Positions 43,495-53,905 of a stretch of DNA of 64,000 nucleotides are shown here, piece by piece. Within the stretch, counting starts at the first letter, position 1; each line of letters begins with the position of its first letter. Under the pieces are notes generated by a model, which was not told the DNA's origin, did not search any database, and saw nothing but the letters and a program-made list of their open reading frames with translations. The DNA is from Turicibacter sanguinis (GTDB lineage: Bacteria > Bacillota_I > Bacilli_A > MOL361 > Turicibacteraceae): assembly GCF_013046825.1 (NCBI RefSeq), contig NZ_CP053187.1:2762001-2826000 (forward strand), read 5' to 3'. The position numbers and the translations under genes were made by a program.

Positions 43495-43532
43495 AAAGGA
43501 ACTCAGATTTTAACTTGAGTTCCTTTATTTTT
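43495..43532. terminator. terminator between gldA and hcp
   Basis: AAAGGAACTCA/TGAGTTCCTTT stem followed by ATTTTTTA on the plus strand, with AAAA on the other side. It serves convergent gldA and hcp. Confidence 0.85.
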
Positions 43533-45166
43533 TATTCAAAAAATTTAACTAAGTCTTCCTCAACAGATGAAATACCACCAATTTCAAACGTTTGAACTAA
43601 AAAGTCCACAATATTGGGTGATAAGAAAGCAGGTAACGTAGGACCTAAATGAATCTTTTTCACACCTAATGATAAAAGAGCTAATAAGACAATGACGGCT
43701 TTTTGTTCATACCATGCAATATTATAAACAATCGGTAAGTCATTAATATCTTCAAGTCCAAATGCTTCTTTTAATTTTAGGGCAATGACGGCTAATGAAT
43801 AAGAATCATTACATTGGCCTGCGTCAAGCACACGAGGAATTCCATTGATTGTTCCAAGATTTAGCTTATTATAGCGATATTTCGCACATCCCGCTGTTAA
43901 AATAACAGAATCGTCTGGAAGGGCGCTAGCAAAATCTGTATAATACTGACGCTCTTTATGACGTCCATCACACCCAGCCATGACAACGAAATGCTTAATC
44001 TCTCCTTTTTCAACCGCTGAAATAATCTCAGATGCTAACGTCATCACTTGATGATGAGCAAATCCTCCTACAATTTCTCCTTGTTCAATCGCTTTAGGTG
44101 CTTCACATGTTTTAGCCAGTTCAATGACTTCACTAAAATCTTTGCGACCATCCACTAAAACCGGAATCACTTTAAATCCAGGATATCCCGTATTTCCCGT
44201 TGTAAACACACGATCTTGATAAGTGGCACTTTGACGAGGTGGGACTAAACAGTTCGTTGTAAAAATAATCGGTCCATTAAACGTTTCAAACTCTTTCGTT
44301 TGTAAATGCCATGCATTTCCATAATTTGCTTTTAAATGATCATATTTTTTTAATTCAGGATAATAGTGTGCAGGCAACATTTCACTGTGCGTATAAATAT
44401 CAATTCCTTGATCTTTAGTTTGCTCAAGTAATTGAACTAAATCGTGTAAATCATGTCCGGTGATTAAAATTCCTGGACGTTCTCCAACTCCAATATTAAC
44501 TTTTGAGATTTCTGGATGGCCAAATGTTGTGGTATTAGCCGTATCAAGTAAAGCCATTCCCTCTACCCCAATACTTCCAAGTTCAAGTGTTAGCGAAACA
44601 TAATCTTCTAGTGTTAGTGATTCATTAATTAAGGCGGCCATCATTTTGTGCATTCCCATGTATAGTGATGGTTGAACATAGCCTAATTTTTGCGCATGTG
44701 ATAAATAAGCTGCTAACCCTTTAACTCCAAATAACATCAATTCACGAATTGAACGAATATCTTCATTTTCTGTTTGATGAATGGCCACTTTTAAAGCTTT
44801 TTTAATCATCTCTTCTTTAGTTTTAGCAATGAAGTTCATGATATCATGCTTAAGGATGGGTAACTCACGACCAACTAATTGTTCTTTTAATTCCTCACGG
44901 TAGGTTAAGCTTTGCAGCGTGCGTGTTACAAATTCTTCTTCCTCAAAATTAGCATTCGTAATCGTTGCAAATAATCCTTCCATGACAAACTCATGAATCT
45001 CATCAGATACAGTTTCAACTTCTAAAGCAAGCGTCGATACACCAATTAATGAATAGATAAACGTATCCATTAAAGCTGTTAATTCAGGGGATTTTCCACA
45101 TACACCAAAGACAGTGCAGCCTATCCCTTTCGAAGCTTCTTGACATTGATTACAAAACATTTCCAT
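43532..45166 (-). CDS. hcp: hybrid-cluster protein Hcp (hydroxylamine/NO reductase)
   Basis: 544 residues from the ATG at 45164-45166, after AGGAGTG. N-terminal Fe-S cysteines C5, C8, C17 and C23 (FCNQCQE...GC...VC) are followed by hybrid-cluster ligands in GHDLHDL, TNCLVPP, GCDG and [10 protein letters not shown], and a C-terminal ligand region. The family reduces hydroxylamine in vitro and NO in vivo, and protects anaerobes from nitrosative stress. A CRP/FNR-type site precedes the promoter and a Crp/Fnr regulator gene lies upstream. Confidence 0.97.
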
Positions 45167-45195
45167 CTCTATCACTCCTTCTTCTCAACAAAGCT

Positions 45196-45201
45196 ATTAT
45201 A
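45196..45201 (-). promoter_or_regulatory. -10 element of hcp
   Basis: Perfect TATAAT on the minus strand, 30 nt upstream of hcp. The -35 region is poor (CATCTT), as expected for an activator-dependent promoter. Confidence 0.65.
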
Positions 45202-45221
45202 TAAACCTCTTCAAGAACAAG

Positions 45222-45239
45222 ATGTGAGGTAGGTCACAT
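45222..45239 (-). promoter_or_regulatory. CRP/FNR-type operator of hcp
   Basis: ATGTGACCTACCTCACAT on the minus strand: perfect 6-bp arms forming TGTGA-N6-TCACA. The centre lies about 41.5 bp upstream of the predicted +1 (about 45189), the class II activator position. Confidence 0.82.
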
Positions 45240-45250
45240 TTTTAAAGATT

Positions 45251-45283
45251 TTTTTAAAAAAAAGATGACCAAAGGTCATCTTT
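45251..45283 (-). terminator. terminator of the Crp/Fnr regulator gene
   Basis: AAAGATGACC-AAA-GGTCATCTTT followed by eight T on the minus strand. It overlaps the regulator's stop codon and separates it from hcp. Confidence 0.9.
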
Positions 45284-45935
45284 AGCTTTCAAGCCACTCT
45301 CGATTAACACGCATTTGTTTTTTGGAATACTCACATAATCCTTCTTCTTTTAAAGAGGACAATAATCGACTAAACGTTTCACGACGAATACTTAATAACT
45401 CTGCCATTTCCTGCTTTGTTAACGGCATCTCAAATACAATCATCCCGTCTTTTTGAAAAGATTTATGTTTCATAAATAATTGAATCACTTTTTTAAAGCG
45501 ATCTCTTGCATCAATAAAAACTTGATCAGTCAGTAATTGTTGGACACCTTCTAATCGGCGATTCAAATGACAAAACCATGCACGTGTTGCCTGATGATTC
45601 GATAAGATAGCTTTTTCTAGTTCAGGAATCGGAATAGCGACCACCACCGTTTCCTCTAGTGCAACACCAGAAGCAGGATATTGGTGAGGGTCATTAAATA
45701 AAACACTTAAAGCCACTAGATTTCCTCTTGAATAAATTGAAAAAATCTTTTCCTGACCTTGAATAGATGTTTTTAGAATTTTTAAAATTCCTGATTTAAT
45801 ATAATAAACAACCGTTGCCGCATCTCCTTGAAAAAATAAGGGTTGTCCTTTCTCTAGTTGAATTTCATAACTTTGTTGTTTTAGCCTTTCAATTGACTCT
45901 TGATTAAAAGAGATCAATAACGGATGTTGATACAT
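45282..45935 (-). CDS. Crp/Fnr family transcriptional regulator
   Basis: 217 residues. N-terminal cyclic-nucleotide-binding-like barrel (about 20-110: EKGQPLFFQGDAATVVYYIKSG), dimerisation helix, and a C-terminal winged helix (about 165-215) with LTKQEMAELLSIRRETFSRLLSSL. The recognition helix has R-E-T-x-x-R, the residues by which E. coli CRP reads GTGA. No FNR-type N-terminal cysteine cluster is present; only one cysteine lies mid-protein. It is probably the activator of hcp next to it. It follows an oxidoreductase gene by 11 nt, likely in one operon. Confidence 0.9.
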   Translation of the reverse strand: MYQHPLLISFNQESIERLKQQSYEIQLEKGQPLFFQGDAATVVYYIKSGILKILKTSIQGQEKIFSIYSRGNLVALSVLFNDPHQYPASGVALEETVVVAIPIPELEKAILSNHQATRAWFCHLNRRLEGVQQLLTDQVFIDARDRFKKVIQLFMKHKSFQKDGMIVFEMPLTKQEMAELLSIRRETFSRLLSSLKEEGLCEYSKKQMRVNREWLES

Positions 45936-45946
45936 AGAATCACTTC

Positions 45947-46942
45947 CTATTTTAAATCTGCAGGATATTGAAGTCCGATTTGACGACGAACCTCATCTAA
46001 AACACTCATCACCTGCTTTGAGCGTTCCAATGTATTGACATTGGATTCTTTCTTTTGCTTTAAAATCGTTTGAATAAATTCTTCAAGCTCATACTTCATA
46101 TCTGCTTCATCATGAGGAATCGCTAACTCCTCAATCTCACCATTTCGATATTTAATTTGAACTTGATGGAATCGATTAATTCGATCAATCATAACCGTTC
46201 CATCTTCTCCTTGAATCTCCGACGGTAAATAAGAGTTAGAGATTTTAGAATACATGACACAAGCCTCCATTGTAGGATATTTAAAGATGATACTCCCTTC
46301 TCCATCTACACCTGATTCAAGCATATAGGCACTTGCCTTTATCTCACCTGGAAGTCCAAATAAATGAATCATCGGAGCAATCGTATAGACTCCAATATCA
46401 AGTAAAGCACCATTTGATAACTCATTTTTAAACGCATTTAAGATTGTCCCGCTTCGATAGGCATCATATCTTGAAGAATATTGACAGAAGCTTGCACTGT
46501 ATCGACGAATGGTCCCAATTTTATGAAGATGGTCTTTAAGCAGTTGAAAAGTTGGTAACACAGTGGTCTTCATTGCTTCCATTAAAACAACTCCATTTTT
46601 AAACGCTGCTTCGCACATGGCTTCAACTTCTTTTAAGTTAGAAGCCAAGGGTTTTTCACATAACACATGTTTTTGATGATTTAAACATAAGATAGCTTGC
46701 TTAGCATGATAGGCATTCGGTGAGGCAATATACATCGCATCGACGACATCATCTTTTAAAAGCTGTTCAAGGTTAGTATAAATATGCTCGACACCATACT
46801 TCGATGCAAATTCAAGACCTCGCTCTTCTGTTCTAGAATAAATGGCATTCAACTTAAAAGATTCAAGGCTCATCGCTGCTTTTAAGAATTGTTCTGTAAT
46901 CGTATTCGTTCCAATAATACCAAATCGTATCTGTTGAGTCAT
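45947..46942 (-). CDS. Gfo/Idh/MocA family oxidoreductase
   Basis: 331 residues. Rossmann start RFGIIGTNTITEQF, the EKP motif in HVLCEKPLASN, and the C-terminal substrate domain with GALLDIGVYTIAPMIHLFG. The family oxidises or reduces sugars, inositols or related compounds with NAD(P). Substrate unknown. GGAGG-type ribosome site before the ATG. Co-directional with the Crp/Fnr gene, but a functional link is only positional. Confidence 0.9.
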   Translation of the reverse strand: MTQQIRFGIIGTNTITEQFLKAAMSLESFKLNAIYSRTEERGLEFASKYGVEHIYTNLEQLLKDDVVDAMYIASPNAYHAKQAILCLNHQKHVLCEKPLASNLKEVEAMCEAAFKNGVVLMEAMKTTVLPTFQLLKDHLHKIGTIRRYSASFCQYSSRYDAYRSGTILNAFKNELSNGALLDIGVYTIAPMIHLFGLPGEIKASAYMLESGVDGEGSIIFKYPTMEACVMYSKISNSYLPSEIQGEDGTVMIDRINRFHQVQIKYRNGEIEELAIPHDEADMKYELEEFIQTILKQKKESNVNTLERSKQVMSVLDEVRRQIGLQYPADLK

Positions 46943-52864: not shown

Positions 52865-53905
52865 TTATAACTTATGAATTTGTTTATAAGTCTCTAAAAT
52901 ATATGAATCCAATTCCTTTAAGACAGCTAAACTCTTAAAGGTCACACGGCTTGTATAAGACTCACTTTTTGATGGTGCTTCAAAATCAAGTCCGAGTCCT
53001 TCTACCTCTTCTTGTGATAAGTGAGTTAAAATATACTGCTTACGCCCCGTTAATTTGCATCGAAGCAACACCTTTTTATTCGTATAAATTGTAAAATAAT
53101 TTCCCACCATTTTAACTGTTAACTCGTCCATTAAATCATACTCCGTTTTAATCATCTGAGTGACAGTCAATAAAATTTCATCTTCAATAGAAATCGGCTC
53201 TACAGAACCCGACACAACCTCATTTTCGTGTTCAAGCGGTGACCCTTCTTCGCTTACCTCAACTTCTGTTAAGTCAGTGATTTCTTCGCTTACCTCAACT
53301 TCTGTTAAGTCAGTGATTTCTTCTGTTACCTCAACTTCTGTTAAGTCAGTGATTTCTTCTGTTACCTCAACTTCTGTTAAGTCAGTGATTTCCTCTGTTG
53401 CCTCAACTTCTGTTAAGTCAGTGATTTCCTCTGTTGCCTCAACTTCTGTTAAGTCAGTGATTTCCTCTGTTGCCTCAACTTCATCTTTTGCTAACTCTGA
53501 GAAATCTTCAGGAGCTATTGCTTCAATCGATTCTTCATCTGAAACGAAACTATCCATTACCTCTTCAACTGAAGAGACACTCTCTTGAATACTGTCATCT
53601 AGATCATGAAAACCTTTTTCTTCTGAGAAATCTCTTTCAGGATCTATCATGGGAACCGTATTAACATATAGAGATTTAAATTCATCCATTTTAGCTAGAC
53701 ACCAACGAATTCCAATCACAGCAATAAAACAGAAAACTAAACATGTGGTACTTATTTTAACCGATGGTAAATTAAAAAAGAAAATAACAACACTAAGAAC
53801 TAATAAGCCAATAAATAATGCAGCTCCTTTTCGATATAGCATATATTTTTGACTCCATTTATCTACTTCGCTTAACAACTTTAACACCTCAAACTTTCGG
53901 GCCAT
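52865..53905 (-). CDS. membrane protein with acidic 12-residue tandem repeats
   Basis: 346 residues. Two membrane helices (about 24-46 and 50-70) precede an acidic cytoplasmic region. Residues 142-220 are repeats of EVExxEEITDLT, six full copies and a partial one. The C-terminal 105 residues form a folded, basic domain (ILLTVTQMIKTEYDLMDELTVKMVGNY...), not recognised. ATG at 53903-53905 has only a close TAAGGA; a downstream TTG after GAGGTG is an alternative start. Possibly a surface or scaffold protein; function unknown. Confidence 0.65.
   Translation of the reverse strand: MARKFEVLKLLSEVDKWSQKYMLYRKGAALFIGLLVLSVVIFFFNLPSVKISTTCLVFCFIAVIGIRWCLAKMDEFKSLYVNTVPMIDPERDFSEEKGFHDLDDSIQESVSSVEEVMDSFVSDEESIEAIAPEDFSELAKDEVEATEEITDLTEVEATEEITDLTEVEATEEITDLTEVEVTEEITDLTEVEVTEEITDLTEVEVSEEITDLTEVEVSEEGSPLEHENEVVSGSVEPISIEDEILLTVTQMIKTEYDLMDELTVKMVGNYFTIYTNKKVLLRCKLTGRKQYILTHLSQEEVEGLGLDFEAPSKSESYTSRVTFKSLAVLKELDSYILETYKQIHKL
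53246..53482 (-). repeat. 36-bp tandem repeats
   Basis: Six full 36-bp units (53246-53461) and a 21-bp partial unit. Variants are ordered: two SEE units, two VTEE units, then three ATEE units, showing stepwise local duplication. In-frame throughout. Confidence 0.95.

Follow-up and report, generated by a model that had tools for sequence, protein, structure and literature searches.

What switches on hcp, the gene of the hybrid cluster protein (hydroxylamine reductase), in Turicibacter sanguinis? In the 64-kb stretch of DNA analyzed here (the window), hcp follows a gene of the Crp/Fnr family. A first-pass annotation had pointed out a CRP-type box centered 41.5 bp before the predicted hcp start, next to a regulator that carries a CRP-like recognition helix and lacks an FNR-type cysteine cluster. 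This observation is confirmed. The product of the neighboring regulator gene (Table 1) is probably an HcpR-like activator that acts locally and in class II fashion on nitrosative-stress genes, binding the box and turning on hcp. No reports on hcp or HcpR in Turicibacter were found in the literature searched. This common gut genus gains a concrete candidate for a nitrosative-stress switch with a predicted transcription start, a second target gene, and residues that can be tested.

The hcp locus and its promoter

The genes and signals on the minus strand are ordered as Gfo/Idh/MocA oxidoreductase, Crp/Fnr regulator, terminator, box, -10 element, ribosome binding site, and hcp (Table 1). The terminator lies between the regulator gene and hcp, which thus has a promoter of its own; the start codon of hcp is likely the ATG that follows the AGGAG motif. 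The oxidoreductase and the regulator probably form one operon. The oxidoreductase is not a clear part of the hcp circuit, since it is missing beside the regulator in two congeners. Elsewhere in the window, the protein encoded on the minus strand at 52865-53905 has a hydrophobic segment at its N-terminus and acidic repeats in tandem (EVEATEEITDLT).

Table 1. Features of the hcp locus, in positions of the window
Feature	Position	Strand	Basis
hcp, hybrid cluster protein/hydroxylamine reductase	43532..45166	-	NF003658 (791 bits), TIGR01703 (701 bits), PF03063
Ribosome binding site AGGAG, 8 nt before ATG at 45166	45175..45179	-	
Predicted hcp transcription start, 7 nt past the -10 element	45189	-	inferred from -10 position
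Perfect -10 element TATAAT, beginning 21 nt past the box	45196..45201	-	offset kept in 12 hcp promoters
CRP/HcpR-type box ATGTGA-N6-TCACAT	45222..45239	-	pattern scan, kept in relatives
Intrinsic terminator between regulator and hcp	45261..45283	-	terminator scan
Crp/Fnr-family regulator, HcpR-like, 217 aa	45282..45935	-	PF00027, PF13545, CRP fold, orthologues
Recognition-helix residues R184-R-E-T-F-S-R190	45366..45386	-	R185, E186, R190 the same in all 7 orthologues
Gfo/Idh/MocA oxidoreductase, 11 bp upstream of the regulator	45947..46942	-	domain match

The core of the box, TGTGAGGTAGGTCACA at 45223-45238, is flanked by an outer A and T and is the sole CRP-type match without mismatch in the window; looser matches with up to two mismatches are as frequent as chance predicts (35 observed versus 36). 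Read on the minus strand toward hcp, the promoter takes the form TGTGACCTACCTCACA-N21-TATAAT. The composite of box, spacer, and -10 element (43 bases) has one exact match in the window, which lies before hcp, and the next one, the only other match when up to three mismatches are allowed, has three. The first-pass annotation had described the box as a full palindrome, which holds for the perfect half-sites but not for the central six bases. The claimed placement is borne out, as the box center at 45230.5 precedes the predicted start by 41.5 bp, the distance known for class II activation by CRP and FNR. The claim of a poor -35 element also stands: a consensus scan of this strand at the hcp promoter found no sigma-70 promoter, and the -35 of hcp is thus poor or not usable.

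Across the whole genome (2,999,687 bp, single contig), a search for TGTGA-N6-TCACA, the check proposed along with the box, returns five perfect sites and no global excess, with 87 sites at up to one mismatch versus 79 in the reversed control. A global CRP regulon is rejected on this basis. Taken by itself, the box is not rare; its significance comes from its position, its distance to the -10 element, and its conservation.

Conservation and geometry of hcp promoters

Orthologues of the regulator, defined as matches above 180 bits, occur in 7 of 100 sampled relatives, of which five are Turicibacter genomes and two belong to family f8. Six of these seven genomes contain hcp, and the seventh is an incomplete MAG (85% complete). 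The regulator gene, the box, and hcp lie side by side in five genomes that span two families (G000, G001, G004, G064, and G072). In G003, hcp has been relocated away from the regulator and still carries TTTGATTTCAATCACA at the same distance from its -10 element. The relocated gene is followed by a convergent gene (L055 741-1445) for an FNR-like protein that has a stretch rich in cysteines (CTCGVGQSC) at its N-terminus. A search of plasmids for relatives of the regulator yielded distant Crp proteins only.

The survey was extended to the same class, in which 26 hcp loci were found. Twelve of these harbor a box (9 or 10 of 10 positions) 67-94 bp before the hcp start codon: all ten loci of families f1, f8, and f12, and one locus each from f9 and f17. 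No comparable box lies upstream of the other 14 loci, which all fall outside f1, f8, and f12 and serve as negative controls. The first-pass annotation had made its reading depend on conservation of the palindrome before hcp orthologues, and the palindrome is kept in 10/10 loci of the three families. Two functional marks of an HcpR are found here: the Crp/Fnr gene lies beside hcp or occurs in the same genomes, and a palindrome is conserved upstream of hcp.

When the 12 box-bearing promoters are anchored on the box, the -10 element averages 5.17 of 6 matches to TATAAT at offset 29 from the box center, and the second-best offset reaches 3.08. Shuffling the downstream segments (5000 sets) gives a best value of 3.67 at any offset, with none of the 5000 sets near 5.17; when each genus contributes a single promoter, the average is 5.0 versus a best shuffle of 4.11. 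The distance from box to -10 element is identical in all 12 promoters, and no -35 element is seen at nearby offsets. The 21-nt spacers of Turicibacter share merely 4-14 of their 21 bases, so that their length is kept and their sequence is not. The class II geometry proposed in the first-pass annotation is thereby supported by comparative data. That the palindrome is a chance occurrence without function has next to no probability: perfect half-sites taken alone do occur in the genome about as often as expected, but chance does not account for a fixed -10 distance and conservation in 12 hcp promoters.

The same promoters bear on the redox repressor Rex, whose operator (TTGTGAA-N4-TTCACAA) has the same half-site spacing as the hcp box. 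A Rex gene is present in the genome and Rex has been reported in the literature to bind HcpR1-like sites in Desulfovibrio, yet four positions of the hcp box, outer and inner, deviate from the Rex consensus TTGTGAAW4TTCACAA, and a Rex-pattern search at up to two mismatches does not recover the box. The base after TGTGA in the 12 hcp boxes is C or T and never A, and a constant position at -41.5 is what an activator site would have. The reading as a Rex operator is therefore rejected on the bases of the box and is very improbable overall.

At the f9 and f17 loci, the regulator beside the hcp box carries a DRSxL[ST]R helix and the half-sites are GTGATAA-like; these boxes may be read differently. 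A specificity variant of this kind is seen in L088 and L090, where the regulators next to hcp carry a VDRSxL[ST]R helix and the boxes are GTGATAA...TATCAC with the same -10 distance.

The regulator, its signal, and its competitors

The regulator combines a cNMP_binding domain (PF00027, 67.8 bits) with an HTH_Crp_2 domain (PF13545, 45.8 bits), and its structure model takes on the CRP fold (pLDDT 80.9), which together place it in the Crp/Fnr superfamily. The model was built as a monomer on four sequences. It is therefore uninformative on heme, and the fold search, in which cAMP-binding CRPs rank first, confirms the CRP fold only. The R-E-T-x-x-R helix that had been noted is present, and R185-E186-T-x-x-R190 is kept in the alignment of 7/7 orthologues. 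Rodionov et al. tied the corresponding residues to the G and A of TGTGA.

The absence of an FNR-type cysteine cluster is borne out as well, as the protein has only two scattered cysteines (122 and 201), neither of which is conserved among the orthologues. FNR-type Fe-S sensing by the regulator is rejected accordingly. A cyclic nucleotide had been suggested as one possible effector, yet the cAMP phosphate-binding cassette is absent: aligned to Mycobacterium tuberculosis CRP, FGE is replaced by VAL and RTSSA by QYPAS. DNR, an NO sensor, resembles the regulator across this region. A cNMP effector is thus disfavored. It is accordingly hard to credit that the protein is a CRP-type activator, responsive to cAMP or another cyclic nucleotide, that happens to control hcp. 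Such an activator would share its site and helix with CRP and fit the top ranks of the fold search, but the missing cassette, the lack of a global excess of CRP sites in the genome, and the regulator profile, which scores DNR (109 bits) above every CRP, all speak against it. The overall reading of the first-pass annotation, a local rather than global class II circuit with a role in nitrosative stress, is upheld by the comparative data, and its cNMP option is not.

The other effector that had been suggested, heme-NO, is plausible by analogy. In HcpR of Porphyromonas gingivalis, the heme ligand is Met68. The corresponding column, located through a mutagenic primer given in PMC12750200 and the 9day alignment, holds Lys or Arg in 7/7 orthologues, the window regulator among them, and Arg in DNR, so the ligand is not conserved. 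The alignment of the seven orthologues contains no invariant His, Met, or Cys, and heme binding is thus unsupported by sequence. NO sensing is inferred from the target genes and not from the sensor domain. The most likely trigger would be NO or a related reactive nitrogen species, perhaps acting via heme. The regulator dimer would then bind ATGTGA-N6-TCACAT through R185, E186, and R190 and contact RNA polymerase at a class II promoter with a good -10 and no -35 element, which would turn on hcp.

Which protein binds the box is a separate matter, and binding by another Crp-family protein was the second condition under which the first-pass annotation would have given up its reading. The genome encodes two other Crp-family members with an R-E-x-x-S-R helix, one beside YeeE-type sulfur transporters and one beside asrABC, and the hcp box may be a working class II site for one of these; this is unlikely, though by far the most credible of the competing accounts. 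Their helices (RETVSR and REVVSR) are suited to it, and the asr-linked protein owns class II boxes of its own (TGTGATTTTTATCAC[AG]). The hcp box also persists in relatives that have no orthologue of the window regulator: it is kept in G047 (f8) and the f12 relatives, from which the orthologue is absent, and in G047, G029, and G018 no close orthologue lies beside it. The box therefore does not require the window regulator and is not proof of it, and in these relatives the box appears to be read by members of other Crp-family lineages. Against the asr-linked protein, a frame change breaks its gene in two in this genome, and its boxes have an A/T-only core unlike that of the boxes before hcp and the small-protein gene described below. 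The main argument for the window regulator as the binder is its adjacency to hcp and the box, which is kept across two families.

The asrABC-adjacent gene (L018 1040-1740, G000:C1:2246535-2247235) has its frame change in an A-run and is intact in G001 (L061 709-1437). Its promoter carries the boxes TGTGATAAAAATCACC and TGTGATTTTTATCACG, the latter with a class II -10 element. Phase variation, recent inactivation, and sequencing error are possible explanations of the split.

The sensor types that may read the hcp box differ, being cysteine-free in Turicibacter, CxxC...CxxC in f12, and FNR-like in G047. A tentative extension of the activator reading is that the hcp promoter is conserved and its regulator exchangeable, with at least three Crp/Fnr lineages reading one box through different sensors. 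The signal would then differ between lineages, possibly with a heme-free NO sensor in Turicibacter. The hcp promoter retains its fixed class II geometry from family to family even as regulator lineages change, and this opens to direct test which signal is detected by HcpR-like sensors that lack a known heme ligand.

Further targets and relation to known systems

Two of the five perfect sites in the genome are intragenic (L001 and L003). The three intergenic ones lie before hcp, a gene for a small cysteine-rich protein, and mobB/moeA-like genes, and all three are followed by TAnnnT at N21. The small protein (83 aa, no Pfam match) is preceded by a perfect TGTGACCTATATCACA-N21-TATAAT (L002 1501-1827, G000:C1:794906-795232). 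A class II box with N21 spacing precedes its gene in 4/4 Turicibacter genomes that contain it (G000, G001, G002, and G004) and is absent before the f8 homologues. In Turicibacter, the window regulator would probably also switch on this gene, a candidate target by position and conservation. The f8 genomes have one-mismatch class II boxes before a DUF2249 gene, a DUF438-hemerythrin gene, and a NifU-like gene that lies upstream of one with a DUF1858 domain. In NO-response regulons, DUF2249, DUF438, and hemerythrin are recurring domains. Composite sites exceed expectation only slightly in G000 (12 versus 8), which indicates a small regulon whose other targets rest on position.

Before the mobB-/moeA-like molybdenum-cofactor genes, the perfect site reads TGTGATAAAAATCACA-N21-TAGAAT (L004 1501-1516, G000:C1:2289104-2289119). 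Its core is the same as that of the asr boxes, which suggests a single asr/Mo-cofactor regulon.

In the regulator tree, the Turicibacter and f8 proteins form a clade of their own (100/99). Its sister is the CxxC...CxxC type found beside DUF438 or hcp in f12, with support (86/84) below the usual threshold, and both lie on the DNR/HcpR side of the tree. A clade of RRETLSR-type regulators (L029, L030, L031, L032, and L034) has one CxxC at the N-terminus and another near residue 115. Their genes adjoin DUF438-hemerythrin or hcp genes, and the proteins are possible metal-cluster sensors.

Compared to the known systems, CRP of Escherichia coli has the same consensus site, base-reading residues, and class II placement, with the difference being that it possesses the cAMP-binding cassette that the window regulator lacks and that the latter has a local regulon. 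DNR of Pseudomonas aeruginosa (PDB 3dkw) is the best-scoring solved relative by sequence and has similar sensor-pocket residues. It is nevertheless distant, carries the helix Q-P-E-T-F-S-R, recognizes an FNR-type site, and controls denitrification genes. In Thermoanaerobacter tengcongensis, hcp likewise lies behind a Crp-family gene (crp2, described as the orthologue of Bacillus subtilis fnr) and a CRP-like site (PMC1274295).

The HcpR concept and motif are already published (PMC1274295, PMC5701242). HcpR was predicted in 2005 and has been studied in Desulfovibrio, Porphyromonas, and Clostridioides, and control of hcp by HcpR, or its nitrosative-stress role, is experimentally supported in Clostridioides difficile and P. 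gingivalis. The HcpR2 proteins (P. gingivalis HcpR, Thermotoga maritima TM1171, and C. difficile HcpR) are likewise hcp-adjacent Crp/Fnr proteins with a local regulon and without FNR cysteines. They differ in the helix, which is R-P, R-Q, or R-S instead of R-E-T, and in the box, which is GTAAC-N4-GTTAC instead of TGTGA-N6-TCACA. TM1171 and P. gingivalis HcpR group in a clade (97/90) that does not include the window regulator; the reference rows are long and partial. The entry 1o5l is taken here to be TM1171.

The same motif and helix are seen in HcpR/HcpR1 of Desulfovibrio, which likewise pairs a wTGTGAnnnnnnTCACAw site with R/E/R at helix positions 1, 2, and 6, has hcp as its predicted target, and lacks FNR cysteines (PMC1274295, PMC5701242). 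The window regulator has both the R180/E181/R185-type helix and the wTGTGAnnnnnnTCACAw site; this likeness is one of motif and helix. Desulfovibrio HcpR1 is said to cluster with DNR. HcpR1 of Desulfovibrio desulfuricans binds heme and is not located beside hcp, whereas the window regulator adjoins it. Judged by these comparisons, the regulator would work like HcpR, as part of a stress switch that is real but of an already known kind.
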